Assembly (NCBI GenBank): GCA_003598015.1
Contig: QZKE01000038.1
Coordinates: 1-64,000, forward strand
Reading direction: 5' to 3'
Source: Actinomycetota bacterium
Lineage (GTDB): Bacteria; Actinomycetota; Geothermincolia; Geothermincolales; RBG-13-55-18
DNA: 64,000 nt
Under the pieces are notes generated by a model. It saw nothing but the letters and a program-made list of their open reading frames with translations. It was not told the DNA's origin and ran no database searches. Shown here one piece after another: positions 30 through 51,492 of this stretch (positions are counted from its first letter, which is position 1; every line of letters begins with the position of its first letter). A program made the translations under genes and the position numbers.

Positions 30-1403
30 TTATACCCCGCTGGAGCCCTGCCCGGAGAGCACCGCGGCGAGGGTCTTCATGATGATCTTCAGGTCCAGCT
101 GCAATGATTGATTCTGGATATAGAGGAGGTCGAACTTGAGCTTGTTCTCGGTAGTGGTGGCGTAATGGCCGCTTACCTGGGCCAACCCCGTCAAGCCCGG
201 CCTGACCGCCAAGCGCTCTTTATACCCGACTATGTCACGGGTATAAAGGCGTACGAACTCGGGTCTCTCGGGGCGCGGGCCGACAAAGCTCATCTGTCCC
301 GCGATGATGTTCAGGAACTGGGGTATCTCGTCCAGGCGGGTACGGCGCAGGAAACGCCCGATTCCCGTCACCCTCTCGTCATCATAAGTCGAGAGTATGG
401 GGCCCGTGTCCTCTTCCGCGCCCTTGAGCATGGTACGGAACTTGAACATCATGTACTCCCCTCCGTCTTTTCCCACCCGTGCCTGGCGGTAGAAAACGGG
501 CCCGCGCGAGGTGAGTATCACGCCAAGGGCGACGAGCAGCCAAAGGGGGAGGAAGGCCAGCAGGAGAACGAGGGCGAGTACGATGTCCATAATGGTCTTC
601 ACCGTCCGGTGGTACGCAGGTGGCGGCAGTTTAACCAGGCTGACCAGGGGGATGTCCCCTATGCCTACCTCGTCGATGCGGCCCACCATTATCTCGTAGA
701 GGTCGGGGACGACATCCACCCTGATACGGGTACTGCGGACCTTGATCAGGTCCTCGATCAACTGCCTCTCCCTTATTGGTGTGGTGATCACGACATACTT
801 GACACCGAGGGATGCCACGAGCTCGGGCACATCCGCCACCGTACCCAGAACCCTCACCCCGCCGTATTCCCCTCCCACGGCGCTGGGCTCACGCCCGACT
901 ACGCCAACGGTACGGTAACCGAAGCGCCGGTGTCTTTCCACCTCCCCTATGAGATAAAGCGCGGTATCCTCCATCCCCACCACCAGGACCGGTATTTCCT
1001 CGAACGCGAAGAGCCCGAGCCTCGTTTCCAGCGCCCGCCAGAGGACGAGCAGGACGACCTGGACACCCCAGGTTATCGCGAAAACCAGGCGCGGGAAGGA
1101 GAACGAGCGCATGACGAAGGTGAGCACGATCACCACCAGGAGCCCCAGGGTGACAGCCTGCAGCACGGAGGCGAAGATGTCCCAGTAGCCGGACATCTTC
1201 CTGGGATCGTAGCATCCGAAGACGTAAAGGAAGGCCAATTGTATGAGGGTGATCCATACCGCCATACGGAGATATGGATCGAAGTTGAACCTGGGGAGCT
1301 CTCCTGCGTAACGCATGAGAAATGACAGCACGATACCGCCGTTGATCAGGCCTATGTCGACGACAAGGGTGAGCGCGGTCCAGGTCGATCTCTTCATACT
1401 CAT
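30..1403 (-). CDS. Polyprenyl-phosphate sugar phosphotransferase (WbaP/CpsE type)
   Basis: This 457-aa membrane enzyme should transfer the first sugar-1-phosphate onto undecaprenyl phosphate to start surface-polysaccharide repeat-unit synthesis. The N-terminal half has four or five hydrophobic segments followed by a CoA_binding_3-like region. The C-terminal bacterial sugar-transferase domain begins around residue 265 with a membrane re-entrant segment. It carries the hallmarks KFRTM, the RLDEIPQ segment and GPRPER. Length and architecture fit the full-length family. Its ATG overlaps the stop of the upstream glycosyltransferase gene by 4 nt (ATGA), so the two are probably translationally coupled. 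It is the last gene of the minus-strand polysaccharide group. The sugar specificity cannot be read from sequence. Confidence 0.9.
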   Translation of the reverse strand: MSMKRSTWTALTLVVDIGLINGGIVLSFLMRYAGELPRFNFDPYLRMAVWITLIQLAFLYVFGCYDPRKMSGYWDIFASVLQAVTLGLLVVIVLTFVMRSFSFPRLVFAITWGVQVVLLVLWRALETRLGLFAFEEIPVLVVGMEDTALYLIGEVERHRRFGYRTVGVVGREPSAVGGEYGGVRVLGTVADVPELVASLGVKYVVITTPIRERQLIEDLIKVRSTRIRVDVVPDLYEIMVGRIDEVGIGDIPLVSLVKLPPPAYHRTVKTIMDIVLALVLLLAFLPLWLLVALGVILTSRGPVFYRQARVGKDGGEYMMFKFRTMLKGAEEDTGPILSTYDDERVTGIGRFLRRTRLDEIPQFLNIIAGQMSFVGPRPERPEFVRLYTRDIVGYKERLAVRPGLTGLAQVSGHYATTTENKLKFDLLYIQNQSLQLDLKIIMKTLAAVLSGQGSSGV

Positions 1404-2509
1404 ACCTCTCGCAGGATCTCAGCGTATATCTTCGCCACCCCTTCTATCAGTCCCTCGAGGCTGAACTCACTCTCCACTCTCTCCCTGCCGCGCGTTCCCA
1501 TCTCCTCCCGCGAGAATTCATCCGCGAGCAGGTGGTTCATGGCTTCCGCCAGCGCGCGGGGATCGCGGGGTGGTACCACCAGTCCCGTAACGCCGTCGAG
1601 GTTGGCATAAGAGGTTCCCGTTCCCAGCTCCGTACTGATCACCGGCTTTGCGCAAGCCTGCGCCTCCAGGAGGACGAGGCCGAAAGCCTCGGTTCTCGCG
1701 GTGGATGGAAGAACCAGCATGTCGCAGGCATGGTAGTAGGCGGGCATCTCCCGCTCGTCCGCCCAGTCCACGAAGTGGACGCGATGCGAGATACCCGATG
1801 CCTCGACTTGAAGCCCGAGCTTCTTCCTGAGCGGCCCTCTCCCCAGGATGAGGAAGCCGGCGTCCACCTCCCTCGCCGCCTCGAGGAGGTGTTCAATCCC
1901 CTTGTAGTAGACCAGCCTTCCCACGCAGAGTATCAGCCCTCCGCCCGCGGAGTATTTCTCCCGCAGGTCCGCCGCCAGGCGGGATATACGCCCATCCGCC
2001 TGGAACCTGGACGCATCTACTCCGTAGTTCACCAACCGGCAGCGGTCGGGCAGGGATGCCAGGACGGGTGAGCTTCGCATGAGCTGCGGGGATGCCACCA
2101 GGATGGCCCGGCACCGTCGCAGAAAAGCCTCGAGCACGGGGCGGTATGCGCGCAGGAGCCGTCTCTGTCTGAACACGTCACTGTGGTACCAGGCGACCAT
2201 CTTCCTTTCTTCGCCGAACATCAATCCGCCCAGTTCGCCCAGGGGGAAGGGGTCATGGAAGTGATATATGGAGGCATCCGTGCGCCGCAGGTGCGAAAGG
2301 AAGGTAGGAGAGATGGGCTCGGACCATATCCTGCCGATGCTGCCGGTCCTGGTTACCTCCACCCCGTTCACGTTCTCTTTCACGCTCCGCGGGCTTTCGT
2401 TACATACCAATACCTGCGAACGCATACCTTCCCTGGAGGCGAAACCCTCCGCAAGCCGCCGCACGACCTCCTCGACCCCGCCTATGTGCGGATAGTACAG
2501 TTTGTTCAC
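1400..2509 (-). CDS. Family 4 glycosyltransferase
   Basis: This GT-B-fold glycosyltransferase has an N-terminal YPHIGGVEEVV acceptor-domain motif. Its C-terminal GT4 domain has ILCVGRLVYYKGIEHLLEA and the donor-site stretch EAFGLVLLEAQACAKPVI with the EX7E pattern. It probably adds one sugar to the lipid-linked repeat unit at the cytoplasmic membrane face. The GTG at 2509 is the conservative start. However, the frame stays open upstream to the TAG of the preceding gene, and residues encoded there (SEVRVLQ) match the usual first beta-strand of GT4 proteins. Translation may therefore begin at a CTG near 2533, behind a G-rich tract. It lies downstream of the ligase/TPR gene and overlaps the sugar transferase by 4 nt. 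Confidence 0.88.
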   Translation of the reverse strand: MNKLYYPHIGGVEEVVRRLAEGFASREGMRSQVLVCNESPRSVKENVNGVEVTRTGSIGRIWSEPISPTFLSHLRRTDASIYHFHDPFPLGELGGLMFGEERKMVAWYHSDVFRQRRLLRAYRPVLEAFLRRCRAILVASPQLMRSSPVLASLPDRCRLVNYGVDASRFQADGRISRLAADLREKYSAGGGLILCVGRLVYYKGIEHLLEAAREVDAGFLILGRGPLRKKLGLQVEASGISHRVHFVDWADEREMPAYYHACDMLVLPSTARTEAFGLVLLEAQACAKPVISTELGTGTSYANLDGVTGLVVPPRDPRALAEAMNHLLADEFSREEMGTRGRERVESEFSLEGLIEGVAKIYAEILREV

Positions 2510-2536
2510 CTGAAGTACCCTTACTTCGGACAGTGC

Positions 2537-4894
2537 CTATTCCCCCCCCGTCAATGACTCCAGTTCCTCACGGGCTTTCTCGTTGTGGGGATTGCGTTCC
2601 AGCTCCATGCGGAACATCTCCTCCGCCATTTGCGGGTCGCCGATCTCCTTGTAGATAATTCCCATCTCGAGATGGACCCCGCCCGCCCAGGGATTCAATT
2701 CGAGCACCATCTCCAGCTCTGCAAGGGCTTTCTCCCACTCCCCCATCTGCTCCAGTACGACGGCCCTCTGGAAATGAAGTGCGGCGTTGTCGGGAACGAT
2801 GGCCAGTGCCGCGTCGATGGTCCCCAGGGCTTCATCGGGCCTCCCTTGCTCGAGACGGATATCGGCTACCCTGCACACGGAGATGCGGATAAAGTCGAAT
2901 TCCGGCCGGTCGCGGAAGGGCACGATACTCTGGTCAGCGTAGAAGGGCAGCAGGGCGATGGCCTTCTCGTATGCCGTGACGGCACCCTCGTAATCGCCTT
3001 CGTCCAGCAGCGATTCACCCTCGTAGTAGAAAGCGATGGGGTTGTTGGGGTAGAGCCTCTGGGCTTCGTGCAGGGAACTCCGTCCCCCCTCGTGATCACC
3101 CAGGGAGAGGAGGAGAATACCCTTCCACAGGTGATGATAGGCGTCTTCAGGCTCGAGCTCTATCGCCCGGCCCAGGTGGAACGATGACCGGGCGCCGTAT
3201 TCCCCCTTGCGTGCCTCATCCGCCTCCCCGGACATGAGGTTCAGGTAGAGGTAACCGAGTTGATGGTGGGCTTCCGGATCCGCCTCCCGGCAGGAGAGGG
3301 CTCTCTCGTACCCCGCGATCGCGCCTTCCGCATCCCTCAGGCTCATCTGCTCTTCGGCCGTCTCTTTATGGGTCTCGGAGAGGAAGCCGACGGTGCAGAC
3401 ATAGCCGGCTGCGACCACCAGCAAGGCGAGGGCAACTCCGACGAGCACGGTCACGCCGGCGACTCCCCTTTCACGCGGGCCGGTACTCGGCGCAGGCTCC
3501 AAACGTTCTCCGCCGCCGCATTCGCCCGCGGCGGTCTCGTTCGCGGCGGTCTCGTGCTGCCAGGTCTTCATGCGGCCGGACAGGGCGAAGAGGGCTCCCA
3601 CGCACAACCAGAAGGCCACCCCCACAAGCGGGCTGTACCATGGGATATCGATGAGGTTGTGGACGAGGAAACCGGCTGACGCGGTCCACAGGGCCGCCGC
3701 CATCACTCTCGCATCCTCCCAGGGTTCCTTCCTGAAGATGTAGCGTATGCGGTAGAGTACCATGATGGAAAGGACGGCCATGAGCAGCAGCCCCGCCACA
3801 CCGGTCTCTGCCCCCGTCTCCAGAAGGTAATCATGGGCGTGGGAGGAATAATAGGCGCGGTACTGGTAGCGCTGCATGGCCAGCCCGAAGCCGCCCGATC
3901 CCACTCCTCCCACCAGGTTGTGTGAGAGCATGTCAAGGCCGCCGCGCCAAATCCCGAACCTTCCCCTCATGCTGCCCGCCGCCTCGGTCACATCGAGTCC
4001 GGAGTATTCTCTCCCGGACCCGTACTCCCCTCCGGCTCCGGCGTCCGTCGCAGCGCCGAGGGGACTGTAGAGAGAGCAGAGATAGGCGGCCAGCACCGCG
4101 AGCACCGCGGCCGCCGCCAGGATCTTCCACCTGATCTTCCATTTACTGCCAGGTACGATGATGGCGAGCAGCAGGATGACGGCGGCGCAGACCAGCCACC
4201 CTCCCCTGGACTGGGTCAGGTAGAGACAGGCGAGCTGCAAAGCCAGCGCTCCTCCCCAAACGAAAGTCAGCGCCCTGCGCTTCTCCGCCAGCAGCAGGGC
4301 CACGGCCACCGGGATGGTTATGTTCAGGAAGGCGGCGAACACGTTGGGGGTGATGAATCGCGAGTTCACCCGGTCGGTTATCACGTAGTCGATACCGTGC
4401 CTGCCCAGGAATTCGACCAGGTCTCCGAAGAAGAAGAAATACTGCATCAAGCCGTAGACGCAGAGGGAGACGGACACCGCCGTGAGCAGCCCCATGAACA
4501 ACCACAGCTCTCCCCGGTTGCGCAGCACGAGATAGCCGAGGATGAAAGCCATTACGAACGAGCCGAGCAGCAAGAGCTGCTGCATACCCCTGTAGCTGCT
4601 TTCGCCCCATATGAGGGAGAGCGCCGCGAGCGCGAGCAAGGCGGCCATGACGGCCGCGGCCGCCAGGAATCCCCTGTCGAAGTGAACCATACGCCGGCGA
4701 GCATAGAAGGCAAAGATCGTACCGGCGAGGAGAAGGGTGAGTCCGAAATAGAGCACGAAGCGCCAGCGAAAATCTCCCGCTCCCGCGGTATTGCCCACGA
4801 GGAGAAGCAGAAGGCCCAGGAGGACGACGATGACGTAAGGGAGGTGCTCCCAGGTCATCTTCCTTACGTCTGCTTCCTCCACGCCGGTTCGCAT
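2537..4894 (-). CDS. O-antigen ligase/polymerase-like membrane protein fused to TPR repeats
   Basis: This 785-aa protein has a long multi-pass membrane region (about residues 15-480, some 11-12 hydrophobic segments). It carries a Wzy_C/WaaL-type stretch with LTQSRGGWL and the periplasmic-loop segment SHAHDYLLETGAETG. A soluble C-terminal half (about 520-785) contains tetratricopeptide repeats, with repeated motifs such as AYEKAIALLP and FRMELERNPHNEKA. Members of this family polymerise or ligate surface polysaccharides on the outer face of the membrane. The TPRs may recruit partners. ATG at 4894 follows AAGGAG. Polymerase versus ligase cannot be decided from sequence. It is divergent from the GT4 gene at 5014. 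Confidence 0.85.
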   Translation of the reverse strand: MRTGVEEADVRKMTWEHLPYVIVVLLGLLLLLVGNTAGAGDFRWRFVLYFGLTLLLAGTIFAFYARRRMVHFDRGFLAAAAVMAALLALAALSLIWGESSYRGMQQLLLLGSFVMAFILGYLVLRNRGELWLFMGLLTAVSVSLCVYGLMQYFFFFGDLVEFLGRHGIDYVITDRVNSRFITPNVFAAFLNITIPVAVALLLAEKRRALTFVWGGALALQLACLYLTQSRGGWLVCAAVILLLAIIVPGSKWKIRWKILAAAAVLAVLAAYLCSLYSPLGAATDAGAGGEYGSGREYSGLDVTEAAGSMRGRFGIWRGGLDMLSHNLVGGVGSGGFGLAMQRYQYRAYYSSHAHDYLLETGAETGVAGLLLMAVLSIMVLYRIRYIFRKEPWEDARVMAAALWTASAGFLVHNLIDIPWYSPLVGVAFWLCVGALFALSGRMKTWQHETAANETAAGECGGGERLEPAPSTGPRERGVAGVTVLVGVALALLVVAAGYVCTVGFLSETHKETAEEQMSLRDAEGAIAGYERALSCREADPEAHHQLGYLYLNLMSGEADEARKGEYGARSSFHLGRAIELEPEDAYHHLWKGILLLSLGDHEGGRSSLHEAQRLYPNNPIAFYYEGESLLDEGDYEGAVTAYEKAIALLPFYADQSIVPFRDRPEFDFIRISVCRVADIRLEQGRPDEALGTIDAALAIVPDNAALHFQRAVVLEQMGEWEKALAELEMVLELNPWAGGVHLEMGIIYKEIGDPQMAEEMFRMELERNPHNEKAREELESLTGGE

Positions 4895-37246: not shown

Positions 37247-38433
37247 GGGTCAGGTCTTTCATTTTGCATACTCGAGTATCCATATCCTGCGGACTCATAC
37301 TCGTGGATCGCCTGCAAGAAGCATTACCAGCAGCAAGCCCTTGTTAATCATCTATCAAGGATTGATTCTCCCTTATTCTCTTGGCTATGCGGCTCACCAC
37401 AGAATAATGAATATCCAGAAATCCACCTATTTCCTTCAATGTGTATCCGTAACAGTGAAAAGACCTGTAAACCGCCTCGTCCCTTTCATGCCTGTTGAAA
37501 ATCTCCTCTAATCCTGGCCTATTCAGAAGCTCCCTCCTGAAGGGGACTTCGCTGGCTATTTCATATGCCAGTCTAGATAGGATCTCTTCGATTGACTCGT
37601 TCTCTCCTACAATGATCCCTCCCCTTGCATCTAGAAATGGCGATTCCTCTCCGATTCCCTCTTCAATAAAGGTGATATATTGCTTGCGAGCAGAATCTTT
37701 CCGGCTGGTAAAAAAACAGAGCAATTGATCAGGGTTGAGTGATATTCTTGGCCTTCTTAACCCCACGGTATCCTGATAAGAAGACCATTTCCATTCGCGA
37801 GGCAACGTAACAATTCCTGCTCTCACTGGATTTAAGACAACGTAGCGGGCCGCCACTAACAGGCGTTCTTCATCGTGTATGAGGAAGGCCTTGAACCTAC
37901 CTTGGAACAGGTGTCCTACTCGTTCATGCGTTCTATTGAAGTATTGAGAGTAAACTGCGTTCTGATAGTGCATTCCTTGCGATAGGTTTGCTTTGGGTGT
38001 TCTTACCAGAAGATGGTAATGGTTGCTCATAAGACAGAAGGAATATGGAATCCACTTAAAGCGTTCCACCACGGTAGAAAGGATGTTGAGAAAGACATTG
38101 CGGTCCCTGTCGTCTTTGAAAATGTCTCTCTTTTCGTTCCCCCTGGCGGTAACGTGATATAGGGCGTCTTCATACTGGATTCTAAGAGGTCTTGCCATAT
38201 ATTCTCCACGGATGTATCGGTCAATTCATACAGTTTGAGGAAGGTATCCGTTGTCCATTCCTTAGGGGAATAACCTGATTATGAAAATTAATATTATATA
38301 ACATATTTAACTATAATATATTATATATTATATCTTTTGCAAGCCATGCTGCAATAAAAGTGACTAGGATATCATCCTCACGGAGCCGATTGTTCGGATA
38401 CCCTGGTATGCAAAATGAAAGACCTGACCCCTA
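37244..38433. mobile_element. RAYT-bearing element with 28-bp terminal inverted repeats
   Basis: The 1190-bp segment has identical 28-bp ends in inverted orientation (37244-37271 and 38406-38433, TAGGGGTCAGGTC ... GCATAC). Each is followed by a small hairpin (ATAC-TCGA-GTAT on the left, ATACC-AG-GGTAT on the right). Inside is a Y1-type transposase and a very AT-rich 38.28-38.34 kb stretch, in contrast to the GC-rich flanks. No target duplication is visible, as expected for IS200/RAYT chemistry. Both flanking genes (apgM, fdhA) end on the terminal TAG of the element. Confidence 0.8.
37344..38198 (-). CDS. REP-associated tyrosine transposase (RAYT, Y1_Tnp family)
   Basis: This 284-aa single-strand DNA transposase is related to IS200/IS605 TnpA. 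The N-terminus MARPLRIQYEDALYHVTARGN (in part: PLRIQYEDALYHVTARGN) is a RAYT hallmark. HUH metal-binding residues are His60 and His62 (NHYHLL), and the catalytic Tyr119 lies in RYVVLNPVRAG. The C-terminal tail has an HTH-like YTLKEIGGFLDIHYSVVSRI. All catalytic residues are intact. RBS GGAG precedes ATG 38198. Codon use is more AT-rich than the neighbours, which supports recent acquisition. It presumably recognises the hairpin-bearing ends of the surrounding element. Confidence 0.93.
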   Translation of the reverse strand: MARPLRIQYEDALYHVTARGNEKRDIFKDDRDRNVFLNILSTVVERFKWIPYSFCLMSNHYHLLVRTPKANLSQGMHYQNAVYSQYFNRTHERVGHLFQGRFKAFLIHDEERLLVAARYVVLNPVRAGIVTLPREWKWSSYQDTVGLRRPRISLNPDQLLCFFTSRKDSARKQYITFIEEGIGEESPFLDARGGIIVGENESIEEILSRLAYEIASEVPFRRELLNRPGLEEIFNRHERDEAVYRSFHCYGYTLKEIGGFLDIHYSVVSRIAKRIRENQSLIDD

Positions 38434-40491
38434 AAGCTTTTCGATGGATGCGGCGCAGACTTTGAGCTCTGGTATCTTCGACACCGGATCCAGGGCGCTG
38501 TTGGTAAGGGTGTTGGCCGCCGCCTCGGCGAAGTGGAAGGGCATGAAGATAATCCCCTTCCCCACCTTTTCGGTTACCTTGGCATTGACTTCCACGCTGC
38601 CCCGCCGGGAGGATACCTTCACCGCTTCACCGTCGCGGATGCCCAGCTCGGACGCGTCCGCCGGGTTCACCTCCACGAAGGCGCGGTCTATCTCCCGCAC
38701 CAGTGACGGCGAGCGCCGCGTCATGGTGCCGGTGTGGTAGTGGAAGAGCAGCCGGCCCGTGGTGAGCACCAGCGGGTATTCGGCATCGGGGGTCTCGGCC
38801 GGCTCGCGGAACTCGCAGGGGGTGAAGCGCCCCCTGCCGATGGGAAAGCTCTCCATGTGGAGGATGGGCGTACCGGGGTGATCCTCGGCCGGACAGGGCC
38901 ACTGCAGGCCCTGCGTGCCCAGGCGCTCGTAGGTTATCCCGGCATAGGAGGGCGTGACCCTCCTGATCTCCTCGAATATCTCCTGCGGCGATGCGAAATC
39001 GAAGCCGGAAGCGCCCATCTTGCTGCCCAGCAGCGCGATGATCTCCCAGTCTGCCTTAGCCTCTCCGACAGGCTCGATCGCCTTGCGTATCCTCTGCACC
39101 CGGCGCTCGGTGTTGGTGATGGTGCCGTCCTTCTCGGCGAAGGACGCGGCGGGCAGGACAACGTGGGCGAACTCCATGGTCTCGTTCTCCATGATGTCCA
39201 CGACCGCCAGGAAGTCCAGCTTCTGCAAAGCCTCCCGTACGTGATTTATATCGGGGTCGGAGACCATGGGGTTCTCCCCCATGATGAACAGGGCGTGCAG
39301 CTCGCCTTCGGACGCCTTGTCCGTCATCTCGGTGATGGTGAGCCCGGGCTGCCTGGAAAGACCCTCCACGCCCCATGCTTCCTCGAATTTCCTGGCAACA
39401 TCCTCGTCCGCCACCTTCTGGTAGCCGGTGTAGACGTTGGGCAGGCCTCCCAGGTCGCATGCGCCCTGCACGTTGTTCTGGCCCCGCAGGGGATTGACCC
39501 CCGTGCCCGGTCTGCCGATGTTGCCGGTGAGCATGGCCAGGTTGGCCAGGGAGAGGACGTTGTCGGTCCCGGTGGAATGCTGGGTGATGCCCATGCAGTA
39601 GACGATGGAAGCGCTCCCGGCCCCGGCGTATATGCGCGCCGCAGCCTCCAGGTCCTCCGCCGGGACGCCGGAGATCTCCTCCACCTTCTGGGGCGTGTAC
39701 TCCGCCACCGATTTCTTCAGCTCTTCGAATCCCTCGGTGCGCGCGGCGATGAATTCCACGTCCTCCAGGCCCTCGGAGACAATCGCGTTTATCAGGCCGT
39801 TGAGATAGGCCACCTCCGTCCCCGGCCGGGGCCGCAGGAATACCTCGGCGAATTCGCTCAGGTGGATGGAACGGGGATCGATGACCACGAGCCTGGCGCC
39901 TTTGCGCACCGCCGCGAGTATCTTCTCCCCGATGATGGGATGCTGTTCGGTGGTGTTGGAACCCACCACCAGGATGGCCTCCGCGTCCTCCAGCTCGCCG
40001 ATGGAATTGGTCATGGCCCCGCTCCCGAAAGCTGCCGCCAGACCGGCGACGGTAGGGCTGTGTCATAAGCGGGCGCAGTGGTCGACGTTGTTGGTGCCGA
40101 CCGCCGCGCGAGCCAGCTTCTGCAGCAGGTAGTTCTCCTCGTTGCTGCAGCGGGCCGAGGCGAAGAAGCCCACGGAGTCCGGACCATGCTCGTCACGGGC
40201 GCCCGCCAGTCCTGTGGCCACCGCCTGCAGGGCGGTCTCCCAATCCGTCTCGACCAGTTCACCATCCTTGCGGATCATGGGCCGGGCAAGACGGCGCGGG
40301 CTGTGCACGAACTCGTGCACCGACCATCCCTTGATGCACAGGGCGCCCCGGCTGACGGGATGATCCTTCTGGGGCAGGGTCCCGCTCAGGCGATTCCCGG
40401 TGACCTCCAGCAGGACCCCGCAGCCCGTCCCGCAGTATACACAGGTCGAGGGGACGAGCTTGTAGCTCAATTCATTGTTGTTCTCGGCCAT
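38431..40491 (-). CDS. fdhA: Selenocysteine formate dehydrogenase, catalytic subunit
   Basis: This 686-aa molybdopterin oxidoreductase oxidises formate to CO2 (or the reverse) at a bis-MGD Mo/W centre with selenocysteine. The in-frame TGA at 40063-40065 encodes residue 143 in the context HCARL-U-HSPTVAG, the classic formate dehydrogenase active site, so this is not a frameshift or pseudogene. The N-terminal [4Fe-4S] ligands are Cys17, Cys20, Cys24 and Cys52. The C-terminal molydop-binding domain starts near YPLVLTTGRLLFHYHTGTMTRR (in part: LVLTTGRLLFHYHTGTMTR). It has no Tat signal, so it is cytoplasmic. It is last in the hdr-mvhD-fdh operon. Its TAG stop is the end base triplet of the RAYT element. 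Confidence 0.93.
40034..40050 (-). promoter_or_regulatory. SECIS-like hairpin for selenocysteine insertion
   Basis: On the fdhA mRNA, GUCGCC and GGCGGC form a 6-bp stem (one G-U pair) closing a GGUCU loop. This starts 12 nt after the UGA. In E. coli fdhF, as I recall its sequence, the SECIS element also presents GGUCU at the same codon distance from UGA. This makes SelB-dependent decoding likely. Confidence 0.75.
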
Positions 40492-41778: not shown

Positions 41779-44700
41779 CTATTCCCGCCAGGCGGACGCC
41801 GCCGCCTCTATCTGTTCGAATATCTGGTCGGAGCGGAAGCCCTGCAGCCTGCTGGCCCCCGCGGTGCAGGCGGCCGTACAGGTGCCGCATCCCTTGCACA
41901 GCGAGGTGTTGACCACCGCCACTTTCTTCTCCTCGTCGTAGGTCACTGCCTCGAAGGGGCAGAGCTGCAGGCAGATACCGCAGCCGGAACACTTATCGGC
42001 ATCCACTACCGCCACCACTCCCTCGGTCACGATCTTGTCCTTGGAGAGGATCGATTCCGCACGCGCCGCCGCGGCGGCGGCCTGGGAGACCGACTCCTCG
42101 ATGGACTTGGGGGCATGGGCCAGGCCGCATACGAACACCCCGTCGGTGGCGAAATCCACCGGGCGCAGTTTCATGTGCGCCTCCAGGAAGAACCCCTCGG
42201 CGTTGCGGGGCACCTTGAGCATGGGGGCCAGCGCGGCGTTGTCCGGGTTGGCCGTGATACCGGTGGAGAGGACCACCAGGTCGGTGTTGAGAACCACCAT
42301 CTCCCCGGCCAGATTAGCGTCGGGCACCCTCACTTGCAGCGTTCCCGCCACATCGCGCACATCCGGGCGCACGTCGTCGTCGAAACGCGAGAAGACCACG
42401 CCCGCCTCGCGCGCCTCGCGATAGATATCCTCGCGGAAGCCGTAGGTGCGCACGTCGCGGTAGAGGACGAAGACCTCGGTACGCGGGCTCAACTCCTTCA
42501 GGGCCAGGGCGTTCTTCGCGGCTTCGGTGCAGCAGACCTTGGAACAGTACGGCCTCTCCTCCTCGCGGGAGCCTACGCACTGGATCATGACCACGCGCTC
42601 GACGTCGGCAAGGGCTGGATCCTTCTCGGCTATCCTCTTCTCCAGCTCCCACTGGGTGAGCACCCTGCCGTCCTCGCCGCGGAGATACTCCGTGGGCTGG
42701 TACTGGCCGCCGCCGGTGGCCACGATGACCGCCCCGTGCTCGAGGAGTGTCTCCCTGCCCTCGGCGTCCCGGATAAGCGTCTTGAACTGCCCCACGAACC
42801 CGCCCACGTCAACTATCTCGTGCGCGGTGAACGCGGTGATCAGCTCCTCGCGCTCCACTCGATCCGCGAGCTCCTTCACGTAGGCCTGCACGTCCTCACC
42901 CTTGAGGTTGAAATGTATGTTGCGAGCCAGACCTCCCAGCTCGTCCTCCTTCTCCACCAGGTATACCTGGAAGCCGGACGCGGCCAGGTTGAGGGCGGCG
43001 TTCATTCCCGCCACGCCTCCCCCGATGACCAGGCCGCGCGGGATGACGCCGCTCTCCCCCTCCACCAGGGGCTCGAGGCGGCGCGCCTTCTCCACCGCCA
43101 TCTTCACCAGGTACTGGGCCTTGCGCGTGGCGTTCTCCGGCTCCTGCATGTGCACCCAGGAGCAGTGCTCGCGGATGTTGGCCATCTCGAAGAGGTACTT
43201 GTTCACGCCCGCCGACTGCAGCGTCTCGCGGAAGAGCGGCTGGTGGGTGCGGGGCGTGCAGGAGGCCACCACCAGGCGGTTGAGCCCGTTCTCCTCCACC
43301 ACCTGCCGGATCCAATCCTGGGCATCCTGGGAACAGGCATAGAGACGCTCTTCCGCCCATACCACGCCGGGCAATTCCTTCGCGTACTCCACCACCGCCG
43401 GTACGTCCACAAAGCCGCCGATGTTGGAGCCGCAGCGGCAGATGATCGCCCCCACCCGGGGCTCCTCGCCGCCCACGTCCTTCTCCGGCGGATGCTCGCG
43501 CCGGGTGAGCAGGGTGTTCCTGGCTCCGTGCAGCGCCTGGGAAGCGATGCCGGCTGCCGCCGTAGCCTGGGTAACGGTGTCCGGGATGTCCCTGGGCTCC
43601 TGGGCCGCGCCGCAGACCAGGACCCCCGGCCGTGATGAGAGCACGGGAAGGAAGGGATCGGCCTCGGCGAAGCCGTATTCGTTGACCTCGAGCCCCAGGC
43701 CTTCCTTCAGGCCGCAGGGGGCCTCCAGCCCGATGGAGAGCACCACCAGGTCGAACTCCTCCTCTTGCGTGCATCCCGCCTCGTCGGCGTAGCGCAGCAG
43801 CAGGTTCTTGGTGCGCTGTCTCTCGCGGATCCCCGATATCAATCCGCGCACGTAGCGTACCCCGTGGCGCGACTCCGCCGCGGTGTAATACTTCTCGAAA
43901 TCCTTGCCGTAGGCGCGCATATCGATGAAGAAGATGGTCGGCTCGATGCCGGGCAGGTGCTCCTTGGCGATGAGCGCCTGCTTGGTGGCGTACATGCAGC
44001 AGACGCTGGAGCAGTAACCGTTGCCCACCGTGGTGTCGCGCGAGCCCACGCACTGTACGAAGGCGAGCTTCTTCACCTCTTCCCCGTCCGACGGGCGCAC
44101 CACGTGGCCCTGGGTAGGGCCGTTTGCGCCCAGTATGCGCTCGAACTCCAGGGAGGTCACCACGTTCTGGTTTACGCCGTAACCGTATTCCGTCTTGCGG
44201 CCAGCGTCGAAGGGCCTGTAGCCGGGTGCCGCGATGACCATACCGACCTGGAAGGTCTCCTCGCGCTCCTTCTGGTCGAAGTCCACCGCGCCGGCCTGGC
44301 ACACCTTGACGCAGTTGCCGCATTTCTCCTTGGTGAGCCAGCGACACACCTCGGGGTCGATGACCGCCGCTCCCGGTACCGCCTGCGGGAAGGGCACGCG
44401 GATACAGCGCGTGGTGTCGAGACCGGCATTGTAGGGATCGGGTATCTTCACCGGGCACTTGGCGGTGCAGTCGCCGCAGCCCGTACACTTGCCGATATCC
44501 ACGTAGCGGGGGCGGATACGCAGCTTCACGCGCATGTCGCCCACCTCTCCCTCCACGGAGAGTACGTCGGCCAGGGTGATGACCTCGATATTGATGTTCG
44601 AGGCCACTTCGACCATCTTGGGCGAGAGGATGCACATGGAGCACTCGTTGGTGGGGAAGGTCTTGTCCAGCATGCCCATCACCCCGCCCACGGAGGGCGA

Positions 44701-44856
44701 GGAGTCGGCCAGGTAGACCTTGTATCCCATGTTCGCCAACTCCAGGGAAGCCTGGATGCCGCCCACGCCGCCGCCGACCACCATCACCGCTCCGACTGGC
44801 TTCCGGATCTCCGCGGCCTCGCTCCCGGCTTTCTTGCTCTGCTTCTTATCGGCCAT
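41779..44856 (-). CDS. hdrA: Tandem HdrA-like fusion flavoprotein (heterodisulfide reductase A type)
   Basis: This 1025-aa protein is longer than canonical HdrA (about 650 aa). Residues about 20-480 form one FAD-binding HdrA/QmoA-like unit (MVVGGGVGGIQASLELA, KCTGCGDCTAKCP, VQCVGSRD). The rest is a complete HdrA: CRCGSNIGGFVDVPAVVEYA, VIGGGVAGMNAALNLA, then two C-terminal [4Fe-4S] clusters (CSGCGICLQLCP and CKGCGTCTAAC). HdrA is the flavin-bifurcation site in Hdr complexes. ATG at 44856 follows AGGGGG; the frame further upstream lies inside hdrB and is noise. It lies between hdrB and mvhD, consistent with a bifurcating core. Confidence 0.9.
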   Translation of the reverse strand: MADKKQSKKAGSEAAEIRKPVGAVMVVGGGVGGIQASLELANMGYKVYLADSSPSVGGVMGMLDKTFPTNECSMCILSPKMVEVASNINIEVITLADVLSVEGEVGDMRVKLRIRPRYVDIGKCTGCGDCTAKCPVKIPDPYNAGLDTTRCIRVPFPQAVPGAAVIDPEVCRWLTKEKCGNCVKVCQAGAVDFDQKEREETFQVGMVIAAPGYRPFDAGRKTEYGYGVNQNVVTSLEFERILGANGPTQGHVVRPSDGEEVKKLAFVQCVGSRDTTVGNGYCSSVCCMYATKQALIAKEHLPGIEPTIFFIDMRAYGKDFEKYYTAAESRHGVRYVRGLISGIRERQRTKNLLLRYADEAGCTQEEEFDLVVLSIGLEAPCGLKEGLGLEVNEYGFAEADPFLPVLSSRPGVLVCGAAQEPRDIPDTVTQATAAAGIASQALHGARNTLLTRREHPPEKDVGGEEPRVGAIICRCGSNIGGFVDVPAVVEYAKELPGVVWAEERLYACSQDAQDWIRQVVEENGLNRLVVASCTPRTHQPLFRETLQSAGVNKYLFEMANIREHCSWVHMQEPENATRKAQYLVKMAVEKARRLEPLVEGESGVIPRGLVIGGGVAGMNAALNLAASGFQVYLVEKEDELGGLARNIHFNLKGEDVQAYVKELADRVEREELITAFTAHEIVDVGGFVGQFKTLIRDAEGRETLLEHGAVIVATGGGQYQPTEYLRGEDGRVLTQWELEKRIAEKDPALADVERVVMIQCVGSREEERPYCSKVCCTEAAKNALALKELSPRTEVFVLYRDVRTYGFREDIYREAREAGVVFSRFDDDVRPDVRDVAGTLQVRVPDANLAGEMVVLNTDLVVLSTGITANPDNAALAPMLKVPRNAEGFFLEAHMKLRPVDFATDGVFVCGLAHAPKSIEESVSQAAAAAARAESILSKDKIVTEGVVAVVDADKCSGCGICLQLCPFEAVTYDEEKKVAVVNTSLCKGCGTCTAACTAGASRLQGFRSDQIFEQIEAAASAWRE

Positions 44857-44866
44857 CTTCATCCCC

Positions 44867-45739
44867 CTAAGCCAGCCCCGCCGCGTAGAGCAGCGGCCGT
44901 GGATCGATAAGGTGCCTGGCGAACCACTCCTCGGCGCCCGGGATGTCCAGGGCCAGGCCCAGCAGCTCGGTGAAGAAGAAGACCGGCAGATCGTGCTCCA
45001 GGCCGAAGGTGATCTTCCCCTCCTTCTGCCGCATCTCCAGGTTGGCCAGGCACATGGGGCAGGCGACCACGATGCAGTTGGCATCCGCCTCCTCGGCCGC
45101 CTCGAAGATGCGGTTGACCAGGGTGACGACAATATCTGTACGGGTGAGCGAAAGGCTGCCGCCGCAGCAGTCGGTCTTGTAGGACCAGTTCTTAACCTCG
45201 GCTCCCAGGGCGGTCAGGAGGTCGTCCATGAGCCGGGGGTTATCGGGATCGTCGCCGGTTATCATTCCCCGTGGCCGCACCATGAGGCAGCCGTAATAGG
45301 AGACGGGCTTCAGCCCCTCCAGGGGCCGGAGTATTTTATCCTTGAGATCCTCCAGGCCCACCTCCTCGGCGATGACGTCCAGGAGGTGGACGATCCTGCC
45401 CGCGAAACGGGGGTCGGAGCCCACGATGGCCTCCACCCGCGCCGCGAGCTTCGCGTCCTCGAGGATCTCCATCTGCGCTTTCTTGAGATTGTGGTAGCAC
45501 GCGGCGCATACGACCACCAGGTCATCCCCTTTTTCCTTCGCCTTGGCCAGGTCGCGACCCGGCAGGGACACCGCGAGGAGGTGATTGGTCATATGCGCGG
45601 AAGAAGCTCCGCAACAGTTCCAGTCCTCCAGGGTATCCAGGCTGAAACCAAGCGCTTGCGCGACCTCCTGCGCCGAGACGCCGTACTCCTCCGCCGAGGA
45701 GAGTTGCGAGCAGCCGGGGTAATATCCGTAGCTTTTCAT
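44867..45739 (-). CDS. hdrB: Heterodisulfide reductase subunit B (HdrB)
   Basis: This 290-aa CCG-domain protein binds the non-cubane [4Fe-4S] clusters that reduce disulfides in methanogen HdrB. It has both cysteine-rich repeats: YYPGCS with DWNCCGASSAHM and CAACYHN, then YYGCLMVRPRG with KTDCCGGSLSLTR and CPMCLANLE. The presence of complete CCG motifs suggests catalytic rather than vestigial function. The bacterial disulfide or other acceptor is unknown. ATG at 45739 follows GGAGAG and overlaps the stop of a 34-codon frame by 3 nt (ATGA arrangement). It lies 10 bp ahead of hdrA. Confidence 0.92.
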   Translation of the reverse strand: MKSYGYYPGCSQLSSAEEYGVSAQEVAQALGFSLDTLEDWNCCGASSAHMTNHLLAVSLPGRDLAKAKEKGDDLVVVCAACYHNLKKAQMEILEDAKLAARVEAIVGSDPRFAGRIVHLLDVIAEEVGLEDLKDKILRPLEGLKPVSYYGCLMVRPRGMITGDDPDNPRLMDDLLTALGAEVKNWSYKTDCCGGSLSLTRTDIVVTLVNRIFEAAEEADANCIVVACPMCLANLEMRQKEGKITFGLEHDLPVFFFTELLGLALDIPGAEEWFARHLIDPRPLLYAAGLA

Positions 45740-45840
45740 TGCCTGCTCTCCTTCTCCGCTACCGCGGGTGCGGTACATTCGCCGTGCACGGGCACGGCGG
45801 GAATGGGAGTGCGATCCAGAGAGTGGCCGTAGTCACTCAT
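45736..45840 (-). CDS. 34-aa micro-ORF between hdrC and hdrB
   Basis: This tiny frame (MSDYGHSLDRTPIPAV... ending EKESRQ, with one Cys) has ATGA overlaps at both ends. Its ATG overlaps the hdrC stop and its TGA overlaps the hdrB start. A GGAG sits eight bases before it. It may be a real small subunit or only a translational bridge that couples hdrC to hdrB. It has no recognisable domain and no membrane segment. Conservation in related operons would decide. Confidence 0.5.
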   Translation of the reverse strand: MSDYGHSLDRTPIPAVPVHGECTAPAVAEKESRQ

Positions 45841-46373
45841 CGCTTCGTCTCCTTGAAGATACGCCTGACCTTGCGGCGGTCCTTGACCACGCTGGGTATC
45901 AGCTTGATCTTTCCCTTCTTGAGCATCTCCACCGCGAGGCCTATATCGCTCACCAGGTCACCCGAGAAGGTCTTGTAGGAGCCCATGAGGATGGGCTCGC
46001 TTATGCGTCCGGTGGCCTGGATGTTGCCGAGGAAGCACGCGTGGAAAAGGGGGATGTTCCTCTCGGCGGGTTTGACGCCCTCCTCCAGTGCCATGGCCCG
46101 CAGGGTGTCTATTACCCCGGCTACGTCTATGTCGTTGGGACAGCGCGCCGTGCAGGTTTCGCAGGCAGCGCAGATCCAGATGGTGTGGCTGCCGAGCAGT
46201 CTCTTTTTCTGCCCGTAATGGACCAGTTTCATCATCTGGTGCGGGAGTATATCCATGGCGAAGTTGAAGAGGCACCCCGTGCTGCACTTTCCGCACTGGT
46301 AGCATAGCCGCGGCTTTTCACCACTCCTCTCCTCCACCTCCCCCTCCAGGGCCGGACTGAATGCGTTTATCAT
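45837..46373 (-). CDS. hdrC: Heterodisulfide reductase subunit C (HdrC)
   Basis: This 178-aa ferredoxin-like protein has two [4Fe-4S] motifs, CYQCGKCSTGC and CAACETCTARCP, and the HdrC signature ILPHQMMKLVHYGQK. It passes electrons from HdrA to HdrB. Its length fits the family. ATG at 46373 is chosen because GGAGGAGAG immediately precedes it. An in-frame extension to 46505 exists but has no RBS and does not resemble HdrC. It is first in the operon, so the operon promoter should lie in the AT-rich region upstream. Confidence 0.92.
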   Translation of the reverse strand: MINAFSPALEGEVEERSGEKPRLCYQCGKCSTGCLFNFAMDILPHQMMKLVHYGQKKRLLGSHTIWICAACETCTARCPNDIDVAGVIDTLRAMALEEGVKPAERNIPLFHACFLGNIQATGRISEPILMGSYKTFSGDLVSDIGLAVEMLKKGKIKLIPSVVKDRRKVRRIFKETKR

Positions 46374-46688
46374 CTCTCCTCCTCCGCTTCGATTGGCAGC
46401 TTCGAAATACAATGATAATCTTACTCGCAACCATCTTTCCATAACCTCAGTCATAAATACATAATTCAAGGCCGTATCGGGCCATGATATGATGCGCTTC
46501 TCCATAACGCATATCTATAATGACTCATTAGTATACTATAGATTACCGTTTCCGAAAGACCTCGGCGGGTTATGGGGAGCAAAGCGGATGCATTAACATA
46601 TGGTGGATACAGGCCGATGCAACCAGGGAAATGATGGGTCCGGACTGCTGCGTGCGCCATGGCCGGCAGGCCGTCAGGAGTATGTCAC
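46374..46688. promoter_or_regulatory. AT-rich divergent control region, hdr operon / GT-C gene
   Basis: The 315-bp gap is AT-rich relative to its flanks and divides the minus-strand hdr-fdh operon from a plus-strand membrane-protein gene. It contains a 10-bp palindrome TAGTATACTA at 46529-46538. Next to it lie -10-like hexamers on both strands (TATAAT at 46516-46521 on plus; TATAGT at 46540-46535 on minus). No convincing -35 elements were found, so exact promoters are unassigned. Confidence 0.4.
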
Positions 46689-49253
46689 ATGCAAGCGTGG
46701 AAGGGACTGCTAGCCCGCAGAAGGACGGAGTACGCTCTCGTGCTCGTCTTCTTCCTTCTGATTACGATCATCTTCACCTGGCCCCTGCTCCTCCATCTCC
46801 ATGACGGCTTGACCAATAACAGCAGCGACACCCTGTGCAACACGTGGATAATCTCCTGGAACTCGAAGACCATGTTTACGCAACCCGCACGCCTCTTCCA
46901 GGCGAACTCCTTCTATCCCTCGCGAGATACGCTCGCCTATTCGGAGATCCTTCTTCCCATCTCGTTGCTGGCAAGCCCGATATACTACACGACCCGCAAT
47001 CCCATCCTGGCCTACAATATCCTCCTCGTCCTCGGCATGGTCCTGTCGGCCTTCGGATGTTATCTGCTGGTGAAGGAGTTGACCGGCAGCAGGTGGGGTG
47101 CCCTGGCGGCCGGCATCTTCTACGCCTTCTGCCCCTATAAGATGTCGTTGATCGGTGAATTGCATCTGCTCTTTGCGCCCTTCCTCCCCCTGATGTTTCT
47201 CTACTTCTACCGCTACCAGCAAACGGGGCAAAGGAAGGACCTCGTCCTCTTTGGCCTTTTCTTCCTGCTCCAGTCCCTGTCCAGCTGGCATTATCTCGTG
47301 TTCTGCGCTTTTGCCGTTGCTCTGCTCCTGGTATGGACGGCCGTCTTCTCGCGCCACAAACGGGATTGGCTGAGACTGGCGGGGGTCCTGGCGGCGGTCT
47401 TGATCGCGGCGGCGTTGATCCTCCCGTTCGCGCTTCCCTATGTGAGGGTTCACAGCCGGCTGCCCGACTTCGAGCGGTCCCGGGAAGACGCCGAGATCTT
47501 CTCGGCCGTTCCGGGCGACTACCTGCGCGTGGTACCCGAAAGCCTGGTTTACGGGAGCACCCCTCCACCGTTCCGAGAATACGTACCGGGGGCTACCGCG
47601 GTCCTCTACCCGGGATTGCTCGTATTGATCCTGGCTCTGGCCGGATTGTTCGTACGCCGTCGCGAAAATGACGACCTGCTTGCCTTCGACCGGAACTCCT
47701 ATCGCAAGGGATTCCTCTTTTTTCTGCTCTTCACCGTAGTCGGCATAATCCTGACCTTCGGCCCGAGCATCGGGAGCGTGGATAATCCGGTCTACATGAT
47801 CCCTTACAACCTGGGGATCCTCAAGATAATACGTTTTCCGACGCGCTTCTTCCTCATGGTCTCCCTGGGCCTGGCCGTGATGGCAGGATATGGCATAGCC
47901 AGGATCGCGACCAGGATATCACAGTGGAGAAGAAACCTGGGTGCGGGACGCCTGGCCGCCGCGGCACTGATCTTTCTGCTGCTTCTGGAGTTGGCCACTT
48001 TCAACCTCGTGATCTATCCCATCCCCGTATGGGGACAGGTTCCGGATGTCTACTCCTGGCTCGAGGAACAGGGTGATGTTGAGGTGGTGGAGCTCCCGGC
48101 GACCATCCTGGGTCCGGGCTCCGTGCGCTATGATGACTGGCACATCGGCTTCATGCCGGCGCAGGCGGATTACACCACCCGCGAGGCATTGCTGCAATAC
48201 TACAGCATCTATCACTGGAAAAGGATAGCCAACGGCTACAGCGGGTACCTTCCCTTTTTCTATCGCCGTATCTACACGGAGATGCAGGCCTTCCCTTCGC
48301 AGAGAAGCGTCGATCTGCTGCTGGCCCTGGACATCGACTACGTCATCTGGCATTGGGACTGGGTGGACGCGGATATGGAGGCGGCATTCCGGGACCGCCT
48401 CTCCTCTACGTCCGGCATCTCCCTGGAAGGCGATTTCGGCAATGAATCCGTATTCCGCATCGAAAAACGCGCAACCGCTACCCCAGAAGACCTGGAGGTC
48501 TCCATGGCATCACCGCATGAGATCCCCTCCGGCGAGGGCTTCAACCTGGCATTTATGCTGCGCAACGCCGGGGACGGTCCCATAGCCATGGCGGTCGAGG
48601 ATCCCCAGTCATTCCGTCTGCGTTTTCTGGACACGAGGGGGAACGAGGCCTGCGAGGAGAAGGGGGAATACCGCGTACCCTTCTTCCTCGAACCGGGCGA
48701 GGAGACGTATGTACCTTTGCAGGCGGCTGCCGCGCCTGGCCGGGGCTCCTACACGATGGAGCTTTCGCTTAGCGGCGGTCTCCTGGGGGAATGGGAATTG
48801 TCAAAGGACATCGAGGTCATGGAGCCAGGGGATCTCATCGCATCCGCCGTTCTCAACGGGATGGTCAGAGCCGGCGGGGACCATGCCGAAGCGGGGCCGA
48901 TCGAAGCGGACGGAACCTTGCCCCTCAGCCTCGAGGTGGATAACACCGGGACCATCCTCTGGCGATCGAGCTGGGAGAAAGAACAGGTGGGGACCGGTTA
49001 CCCTTACGGTCTGGTCTATGTGGGCGCGCTCTGGATGCAGGGAGAGGAGGTCGTCTGGGAGGAGCAAGCCGCCGTACTCCCTTGTGACGTCTCGCCCGGC
49101 CAGTCCATAGAGGCGCCGATCCTGTTGCGCTCTCCGCCCGTGCCCGGGCCGTACCGTCTGGTCCTGGGCCTGAGGGACAAAGAGCTGGATTGGTTCGGAG
49201 AGATTTTCGTGATGGAGTTCGAGGTCAAAGAAGCGGCGGGTACTCCGCCTTAG
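46689..49253 (+). CDS. GT-C/YfhO-like membrane protein, long paralogue
   Basis: This 854-aa protein has an N-terminal TM helix ending in FTWPLLLHLHDG. A luminal acidic-aromatic loop (SSDTLCNTWIISWN) follows, with about 10-12 more TM segments to residue 430. A soluble domain contains HWKRIANGYSGYLPFF and IDYVIWHWDW, and the C-terminus carries about 240 residues of two beta-rich domains. It resembles polytopic GT-C glycosyltransferases or YfhO-type proteins that use polyprenyl-linked sugars outside the membrane; the exact family was not verified. ATG at 46689 follows AGGAG. It is the largest of three close paralogues in this window. Confidence 0.75.
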   Translation: MQAWKGLLARRRTEYALVLVFFLLITIIFTWPLLLHLHDGLTNNSSDTLCNTWIISWNSKTMFTQPARLFQANSFYPSRDTLAYSEILLPISLLASPIYYTTRNPILAYNILLVLGMVLSAFGCYLLVKELTGSRWGALAAGIFYAFCPYKMSLIGELHLLFAPFLPLMFLYFYRYQQTGQRKDLVLFGLFFLLQSLSSWHYLVFCAFAVALLLVWTAVFSRHKRDWLRLAGVLAAVLIAAALILPFALPYVRVHSRLPDFERSREDAEIFSAVPGDYLRVVPESLVYGSTPPPFREYVPGATAVLYPGLLVLILALAGLFVRRRENDDLLAFDRNSYRKGFLFFLLFTVVGIILTFGPSIGSVDNPVYMIPYNLGILKIIRFPTRFFLMVSLGLAVMAGYGIARIATRISQWRRNLGAGRLAAAALIFLLLLELATFNLVIYPIPVWGQVPDVYSWLEEQGDVEVVELPATILGPGSVRYDDWHIGFMPAQADYTTREALLQYYSIYHWKRIANGYSGYLPFFYRRIYTEMQAFPSQRSVDLLLALDIDYVIWHWDWVDADMEAAFRDRLSSTSGISLEGDFGNESVFRIEKRATATPEDLEVSMASPHEIPSGEGFNLAFMLRNAGDGPIAMAVEDPQSFRLRFLDTRGNEACEEKGEYRVPFFLEPGEETYVPLQAAAAPGRGSYTMELSLSGGLLGEWELSKDIEVMEPGDLIASAVLNGMVRAGGDHAEAGPIEADGTLPLSLEVDNTGTILWRSSWEKEQVGTGYPYGLVYVGALWMQGEEVVWEEQAAVLPCDVSPGQSIEAPILLRSPPVPGPYRLVLGLRDKELDWFGEIFVMEFEVKEAAGTPP

Positions 49254-49416
49254 CCGTTGCGAACGCGTGTCGGAAGGAAAATGGACCGGCGGACACTACG
49301 GGAGCCCGGCGATTCCACAACCCCCGGGTACTTGAAGGCCCGCGGGGAAGATCGTGTTTCGCTCGCGGCCGGGACACCGCGTGCCACGGGCGTCCTCCGG
49401 ACAGGAGCATGGAGCC

Positions 49417-51492
49417 GTGAAGGATATGGATAGCCTCCTCGCCAGTAAGCGTAAAGAGTACGGCCTGGTGATCCTCTTCTTTACCCTCGTATCCATCGTC
49501 TTCACGTGGCCCCTGGTGCTCCACCTTCACAACGGGGTCCTGGGCGGGACAAGCGACCCGCTTCTCAATACCTGGATCATGACCTGGGACGCCCATACCT
49601 TCTTCACCCATCCGGCCCAGCTCTTCCAGGCGAACATCCTCTATCCCGCCAGGGACGTCCTGGCCTACTCGGAGCACCTCTTCACCATGGGCATAATGGC
49701 CGCACCGATCTACTACCTCACCGGCAACTCGGTGCTCGCCTACAACCTCCTCATTTTTTTCGCCTTCGTGTTCTCGGCCTTCGGTTGTTACCTCCTGGTC
49801 AAGGAGCTTACCGGCAGCCGCTGGGGCGCTCTGATCGGCGGCCTCTTTTTCGCCTTCTGCCCTTTCAAGACATCCAAGCTCGGGCTGCTTCATGTCCTCT
49901 TCTCCCCCTTCCTCCCCTTCATGCTCCTGTATCTCTACCGCTATCTCTACGCGGGGAAGAGAAAGAACCTCGTCCTCTTCGCCTTCTTCTTTCTCGCCCA
50001 ATCCCTGGCGAGCTGGCATTATCTTCTTTTCTGTTCCCTGGCGGCGGGATTGCTGTGGCTGTGGACGGCGGCTTTCTCCCGCACCCGGAGCGAATGGAAC
50101 AGGCTGCTCGGGGTGGTCCTGGTCGCGCTGATAATCGCGGCCGCGATCCTGCCCCTGGCCCTTCCCTACCTGCGGGTACACGAGCGCATGCCCGGCTTCG
50201 AGCGCACCCTCTCCAATACCGAGTACTTCGCCGCCTATCCCAGGGATTTCCTGACCGTATCCGAGGACAGCGTCATCTACGGCAATTCGCTTTCTCCGCT
50301 TTACATCGAGGGGCTCAAGCAGGAACGGGTGCTATTCCCCGGCCTGACCATCATCATCCTGGCCCTCGCGGGATTGTTAATACGGCGCAAGCCAGAAGAT
50401 GATACCCAGGCCTTCGATCCCGATTCCTTCCGCGGGGGCGCGCTCTACTTTCTCGTGCTCATCGTCATCAGCCTGATCCTGAGCATGGGACCCGAGATCG
50501 CCGGAGTGACCAATCTCTTCTATACCATCCCCTATCACCTGGGGCTGTTCAAGTTCATCCGTTTCCCCGGCCGTTTCTACGTCCTGGCCGCGTTGGGACT
50601 GTCCGTGCTCGCGGGGTACGGCGCGGGCAAGCTCTGCCTGAGGGCGACGCAGAGCGGACGCAGCAGGAGATTCGTGCGGCTCGCCATGGCGGCCGTCGTT
50701 CTCATCCTCCTCGCCGAGCTGGCCACCTTCAACCTCCACGTATCCACCGTCCCGGTATGGGGAGAGGTGCCCGAGGCCTATGCCTGGCTGAAGGAGCAGG
50801 GCGACGTGAGGGTGATAGAGCTGCCCGACATCTCCTGGGATTTTGAGCTCAAGGGGATGATCGTCTATCTCAGCACCTTCCACTGGAAGGACATCGCCAA
50901 CGGCTACAGCGGTTACCGTCCGCCCTCCTACGAGAAAATCTTCACCGAGATGGAGGGATTCCCCTCCGGACGCAGCGTCGATGTGCTGCGGGAGGTCGGT
51001 ATAGACTACGTCTTCTGGCACTGGGATTGGGTGGATCCACAAGCCAGGGGGGAGTACCGTTCCCGCCTTTCCTCGCAGGAGGGGTTGAGGTTGGAGAGGA
51101 CCTGGGGCGAGATCGCCGTCTACGCGGTGGAGCCCGGCCCATCGGCCGATGCGAACGACCTGGAGGCGACCCTGGACGTCGCCGCCGAGGCGCGCGAGGG
51201 AGAGGAGATACCCCTGTTTCTGCATTTGCGCAACCCCTCGGAATATGCGCTGCTCTCCTTCGCGGAGGATCCGCAGGATTACACCCTGGTGTGCAGGGAC
51301 GAGCGGGATGGCATGGTCAGCGAGACGGCCGGTGAGATACAGCTGTACATCTTCCTCGAGGGAGGTGAAGCGGCTGTGTTTCCCCTGGAAGCGCAGGTCC
51401 GCCTCGAGCCGGGCGTCCGCACCCTCGAGCTGCGTTTCACGAGCGGGATACTCGACGGGCGCGTGTTGTATTGGCAGGTCGGCGCGGATTGA
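49417..51492 (+). CDS. GT-C/YfhO-like membrane protein, middle paralogue
   Basis: This protein of about 691 aa closely matches its upstream neighbour: FTWPLVLHLHNGVLGG, SDPLLNTWIMTWDAHTFFTHP (in part: SDPLLNTWIMTWDAH), FGCYLLVKELTGSRWGAL, ANGYSGYRPP and IDYVFWHWDWVD. It has about 12 TM segments, the shared soluble domain and only one C-terminal beta-rich domain (about residues 570-691). The start is GTG 49417 or ATG 49426; GTG has an AGGAG nine bases before it. Tandem duplication explains the pair. It is likely to act on a lipid-linked sugar or surface glycan on the outer face. Confidence 0.75.
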   Translation: MKDMDSLLASKRKEYGLVILFFTLVSIVFTWPLVLHLHNGVLGGTSDPLLNTWIMTWDAHTFFTHPAQLFQANILYPARDVLAYSEHLFTMGIMAAPIYYLTGNSVLAYNLLIFFAFVFSAFGCYLLVKELTGSRWGALIGGLFFAFCPFKTSKLGLLHVLFSPFLPFMLLYLYRYLYAGKRKNLVLFAFFFLAQSLASWHYLLFCSLAAGLLWLWTAAFSRTRSEWNRLLGVVLVALIIAAAILPLALPYLRVHERMPGFERTLSNTEYFAAYPRDFLTVSEDSVIYGNSLSPLYIEGLKQERVLFPGLTIIILALAGLLIRRKPEDDTQAFDPDSFRGGALYFLVLIVISLILSMGPEIAGVTNLFYTIPYHLGLFKFIRFPGRFYVLAALGLSVLAGYGAGKLCLRATQSGRSRRFVRLAMAAVVLILLAELATFNLHVSTVPVWGEVPEAYAWLKEQGDVRVIELPDISWDFELKGMIVYLSTFHWKDIANGYSGYRPPSYEKIFTEMEGFPSGRSVDVLREVGIDYVFWHWDWVDPQARGEYRSRLSSQEGLRLERTWGEIAVYAVEPGPSADANDLEATLDVAAEAREGEEIPLFLHLRNPSEYALLSFAEDPQDYTLVCRDERDGMVSETAGEIQLYIFLEGGEAAVFPLEAQVRLEPGVRTLELRFTSGILDGRVLYWQVGAD

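Follow-up and report, generated by a model that had tools for sequence, protein, structure and literature searches.

A 34-codon open reading frame on the minus strand (45736..45840) bridges hdrC and hdrB in the window, which is the whole 64,000-nt stretch of DNA that was analysed, and it overlaps each of the two genes by an ATGA. Comparison with related junctions suggests that the frame is probably a coupling cistron, indifferent to its own sequence, that would keep termination–reinitiation (or continuous translation) running from hdrC to hdrB across an insertion. Because relatives keep the frame open but let its protein sequence vary freely, or lack the insert altogether, the frame probably serves only as a stepping stone for ribosomes.

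The gene hdrC (45837..46373, minus strand) encodes an HdrC/QmoC-like 4Fe–4S protein that ends in ..KETKR*; the evidence for the gene includes orthologue alignments. The hdrC TGA (45839-45837) and the mini-ORF ATG (45840-45838) lie within one ATGA (45840-45837), and the mini-ORF TGA (45738-45736) and the hdrB ATG (45739-45737) lie within another (45739-45736); each is the 4-nt stop/start overlap of coupled cistrons. The insertion between hdrC and hdrB is 97 nt, and the mini-ORF peptide reads MSDYGHSLDRTPIPAVPVHGECTAPAVAEKESRQ. In the 3′ end of hdrC, an AAGGAG (45849..45854, minus strand) is positioned 8 nt upstream of the mini-ORF ATG. A second AAGGAG (45748..45753, minus strand) lies within the mini-ORF, 8 nt upstream of the hdrB ATG, and is hdrB's own ribosome-binding site. 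These coordinates bear out the sequence-only reading, which had reported a double ATGA overlap and a well-spaced GGAG.

The product of hdrB (44867..45739, minus strand) has CCG cysteine-rich domains and belongs to the HdrB family; solved HdrB chains such as 7bkb_B are closest to it. The next gene, hdrA (HdrA2-like; 41779..44862, minus strand), has its ATG 4 nt past the hdrB stop, and the operon continues with an MvhD-like gene, an Fe–S gene and fdhA, the gene for the formate dehydrogenase alpha subunit. HdrB and HdrC are subunits of one complex in known HdrABC enzymes. The gene order resembles that of formate-dehydrogenase/MvhD-linked HdrABC complexes, but the mini-ORF is absent from all family models of those complexes. 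At three loci (L001, the window's own, L004 and L006), the N-terminus of HdrA carries a variable Lys/Ala/Glu-rich extension ahead of the conserved FAD-binding core; the extension is very long in G005 (MAEKEKSGKKGAARTK..) and short or absent in G001. Gene fdhA (38431-40491) contains an in-frame TGA (40065-40063, minus strand) at the usual selenocysteine position (..NVDHCARLUHSPTV..). With the TGA read through, the product is a TIGR01591 Fdh-alpha of full length, scoring 880 bits where the cut-off is 666, and the same genome has a tRNA-Sec candidate well above the Rfam cut-off; the 59 nt surrounding the TGA fold with unremarkable stability (z = -0.43). A pair of adjacent genes divergent from the hdr operon (46659-49253 and 49354-51492, plus strand) encodes multi-pass membrane proteins that are paralogous; they share stretches such as CYLLVKELTGSRWGAL and look glycosyltransferase-like by eye.

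The orthologous operon is present in 13 genomes of the order, and their hdrC–hdrB junctions fall into three groups. In five of them (G002, G003, G014, and the sister-family genomes G016 and G017), hdrC and hdrB overlap directly by ATGA with no spacer, and the ATG that lies 8 nt downstream of the AAGGAG motif at the hdrC end is that of hdrB. Two (G006 and G010) have a 7-nt gap. The remaining six (G000, the genome of the window, and G001, G005, G009, G012 and G013) have insertions of 94-225 nt. In all six of these Ca. Geothermincolaceae insertions, one open frame-0 route leads from the hdrC ATGA to hdrB. It is an exact single bridge at L001 (34 codons), L003 (33), L005 (59) and L006 (59), a chain of 53 and 24 codons joined by ATGA overlaps at L004 (G009), and a 69-codon frame whose stop lies 4 nt before a GTG start at L011 (G013).

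Under a uniform test that requires a start near the hdrC stop and a stop no more than 12 nt from the start of hdrB, single bridges occur at five of the six spaced junctions of the family, against 0.87 expected. Outside the family, 3 of 28 spaced hdrC–hdrB junctions are bridged, against 3.09 expected. With the window's own locus left out, the probability that at least four of the five loci are bridged is ~5e-4 from the per-locus nulls, a figure that assumes an independence that does not fully hold. Across the six spacers, frame 0 contains 2 stops in 328 codons and the other frames 18 in 648 (Fisher p = 0.016). Both frame-0 stops lie at or beside the next start, one forming the ATGA link of the chain and the other lying 4 nt before the hdrB start. 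By codon score, too, frame 0 ranks first among the three frames in five of the six spacers. Since the spacers go back to two or three ancestral insertions and are not phylogenetically independent, these nominal probabilities are optimistic. In addition, the 7-nt gaps of G006 and G010 and the unbridged gaps in other phyla indicate that strict coupling is not universal for hdrC–hdrB.

The main competing explanation is a neutral one, in which an unselected insert was tolerated, hdrB starts from its own Shine–Dalgarno sequence, and the double ATGA arises incidentally from flanking codons and GC-rich, stop-poor DNA. The ATGAs at the two ends are partly given by the last codon of hdrC and by the Met-Lys of hdrB; at 60-70% GC, few stop codons are to be expected; and the good Shine–Dalgarno sequence upstream of hdrB likewise speaks against coupling. 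At the window locus, an exact bridge appears in 11.6% of dinucleotide shuffles (random register, NTGA at both ends), and over the four exact bridges the chance is 5-15% per locus. The claim of the sequence-only reading that a chance double overlap is unlikely is therefore overstated for this locus taken singly; the recurrence at the hdrC–hdrB junction across relatives is what does not look like chance. The more-than-chance case for the window locus alone is weak, and the evidence comes from the relatives.

We surveyed ~2 Mb sampled from five genomes for double-NTGA bridges, with the hdr junctions included in the counts for G000, G005 and G001. Observed against shuffle-expected numbers of exact bridges are 3 and 1.7 in G000, 6 and 2.4 in G005, 2 and 1.4 in G001, 1 and 1.9 in G006, and 0 and 1.2 in G019. 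Apart from a small surplus in G005, the sample contains no clear genome-wide excess; a constraint, if there is one, would then be particular to the hdrC–hdrB junction. The lack of a clear excess suits the neutral explanation, as does the roughly neutral rate at which the spacer sequence evolves. That explanation has to accommodate five bridged spacers of six, plus one chain, where 0.87 were expected and controls outside the family stay at expectation, and a frame 0 that runs through 328 codons with no uncoupled stop. We regard it as a real but rather doubtful possibility.

G001 and G002 are congeners of G000 and allow a closer comparison. On the hdrB tree, the spacer-free G002 is the sister of G000 (support 98/97), and G001 branches next (88/90). 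A neighbouring gene is 83% identical to its counterpart in G001 and 82% to that in G002; with these values nearly equal, the splitting order at the species level is less certain than for the hdr genes. Homology links the spacers of G000 and G001, both of which are bridged. They have 52% nucleotide identity with one 3-nt gap, a value reached in 0 of 500 shuffles (p < 0.002), while the fourfold sites of hdrB and hdrC are 54-59% identical between the two genomes. Spacer identity by codon position is 0.45/0.55/0.53, which carries no codon-position signature. By this comparison the spacer has changed at a roughly neutral pace and bears no mark of protein constraint, while its start, its register and the two overlaps have been retained. 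None of the three frames of the G001 spacer is closed by a stop. In neutral simulations, ~54% of runs leave the G000/G001 frame open and ~22% the L005/L006 frame; because frames stay open easily at this GC content, selection for an open frame has moderate, not overwhelming, support.

The same comparison bears on whether the frame encodes a real small protein, either an Hdr-associated subunit or an assembly peptide. The frame has a good Shine–Dalgarno sequence and start, and its codon score falls between those of coding and out-of-frame windows. Against this, the peptides are unrelated or barely alike among congeners, identity by codon position carries no sign of protein constraint, and the peptide has no match among Pfam or NCBIfam families. 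The sister congener G002 keeps the same operon, with hdrB 89% and hdrA 93% identical, and has the direct ATGA overlap in place of the frame, as do the other direct-overlap genomes. With the peptides unconserved and the spacer missing in G002, the frame is not a conserved Hdr subunit, and the missed small Hdr-associated subunit that the sequence-only reading had offered, which also has no second copy, can be set aside. A small protein of any kind is highly improbable here. The other suggestion of that reading was a coupling cistron, which might set HdrC:HdrB stoichiometry. A coupling cistron draws support from the architecture and the comparison, in which the start, the frame and the two overlaps outlast changes of sequence and length.

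The spacer of the window contains a perfect 7-bp hairpin, GCCGTGC-CCGT-GCACGGC (45781..45798, minus strand), and a second short stem just upstream of the hdrB AAGGAG. Hairpins before the hdrB Shine–Dalgarno sequence could stabilise, cut or attenuate the message, in which case the frame would be incidental or would merely unfold the hairpin. The whole-region fold of the window spacer (z = -1.8) agrees with such an element, but the other five spacers have no excess structure (z +2.07, +0.62, +1.17, -0.46 and -0.12), and the coding strand has no terminator-like site at the spacer. No counterpart of equal strength to the 7-bp hairpin was established in those five spacers, and by fold z no RNA structure is common to the six. 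An RNA element is very unlikely to explain the frame.

Engineered bicistronic designs (PMC5995908, PMC12548453) use a short leader cistron that overlaps the start of a gene. As in such designs, the mini-ORF is a short ORF whose end overlaps the next gene's start codon and which contains that gene's Shine–Dalgarno sequence; it differs in being natural, in lying within an operon, and in having an overlap upstream that would feed it. By this analogy, the mini-ORF would work like a natural bicistronic leader. Each of its junctions also resembles an ATGA-overlapping termination–reinitiation pair, with a canonical -4 overlap and a Shine–Dalgarno sequence in the upstream frame, and a pair of exactly this kind makes up the ancestral hdrC/hdrB junction. 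The difference is that here two successive overlaps enclose a sequence-indifferent cistron between real genes.

The mycobacterial MIRUs are similar in another respect. They are short inserts at coupled junctions whose ORF is joined to its neighbour by a -4 overlap, an arrangement thought to preserve expression (PMC12548453). They too occur in Actinomycetota, and an internal ORF that overlaps its neighbour by 4 nt at a coupled junction, as MIRUs are defined (PMC12548453), is found here. A mobile repeat of the MIRU type that had entered the ATGA junction would account for this match with the described architecture, namely insertion at a start codon, an internal ORF and coupling by a 4-nt overlap (PMC12548453). 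But MIRUs are dispersed, apparently mobile repeats, whereas the spacer is single-copy in G000 and elsewhere has only chance-level short matches, with no significant match in five relatives; the relatives share its architecture and not its sequence. The peptide at L006 is also unique, and no further spacer copies that would make up a MIRU-like repeat family were found. Because the dispersed-repeat feature is lacking, the spacer is not filed as a MIRU, and we consider a mobile repeat extremely unlikely. The ORFs of mycobacterial MIRUs and engineered bicistronic leaders are the closest known cases.

Some inserts may derive from the junction itself. The L004 spacer (2371-2599, minus strand) is an imperfect tandem repeat of ~74 nt, and its units share a 25-nt stretch that is 92% identical. 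The units begin like hdrB: MRTHSYCLLEK.. and MKAHGYCLLEN.., compared with MKTYSY.. in hdrB (p = 0.0004 and 0.02). Judged by these sequences, the two additional units of G009 resemble duplicates of the start of hdrB. For the L001 spacer, the window's own, resemblance to the hdrB start gives p 0.01-0.15 at the 5′ end and p 0.01-0.05 at the 3′ end, varying with test and length; its likeness to the start of hdrB and the end of hdrC is no more than suggestive. Such resemblance is unsupported for L005, L006 and L011 and inconsistent for L003. The proposal that every spacer is a duplicated hdrB start was rejected; it is supported for the L004 units and weakly for L001.

The L005 (G012; 224-399, plus strand) and L006 (G005; 2371-2546, minus strand) spacers are both exactly 172 nt and have similar 3′ ends. 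Their ungapped identity is 40%, compared with 29% in the null and with 73-79% at fourfold sites. Since the identity is far below the fourfold level, the middle has turned over faster than by point substitution, and orthology of the two spacers was rejected on the same figures. Turnover at constant length is unusually fast in this pair.

A coupling cistron fits the following history. The ancestral state would be the direct ATGA overlap, as still seen in G002, G003, G014, G016 and G017, and a short insertion, possibly a duplication of the junction, would have split hdrC from hdrB in a common ancestor of G000 and G001. In reporter work on native gene pairs, reinitiation is nearly abolished at gaps of ~20-38 nt (PMC10666635), and genes for subunits of heteromeric complexes overlap briefly more often than other genes do (PMC10666635). 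A gap of ~100 nt would abolish termination–reinitiation, and we therefore propose that only inserts translatable from the hdrC ATGA to the hdrB ATGA were retained. Ribosomes that end hdrC would restart on the mini-ORF, finish it, and then restart on hdrB, with direct initiation at hdrB added by its own AAGGAG. Selection for coupled HdrC/HdrB synthesis would keep the frame open; avoidance of Rho-dependent polarity on untranslated mRNA (PMC12548453) is an equally compatible cause and indistinguishable from it here. To judge from the hdrB tree, the spacer would later have been lost precisely in G002, a deletion that the matching AAGGAG–8 nt–ATGA motifs at both spacer ends would permit.

More broadly, and as a speculation that we hold quite tentatively, the hdrC–hdrB junction of Ca. 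Geothermincolaceae may repeatedly gain short inserts, some by junction duplication, that are kept solely as translatable filler; selection would act on an unbroken ribosome path and not on peptide or RNA, and the number of coupled steps would tune HdrC:HdrB output. If the coupling cistron is real, it would be a natural open reading frame preserved for ribosome traffic and not for its product. Such frames resemble small genes to annotators and in small-protein surveys but are not. The family offers natural variants, with no spacer, one bridge, a two-step chain or a 7-nt gap, that suit tests of whether reinitiation requires overlap and of how a bridge affects the subunit ratio.
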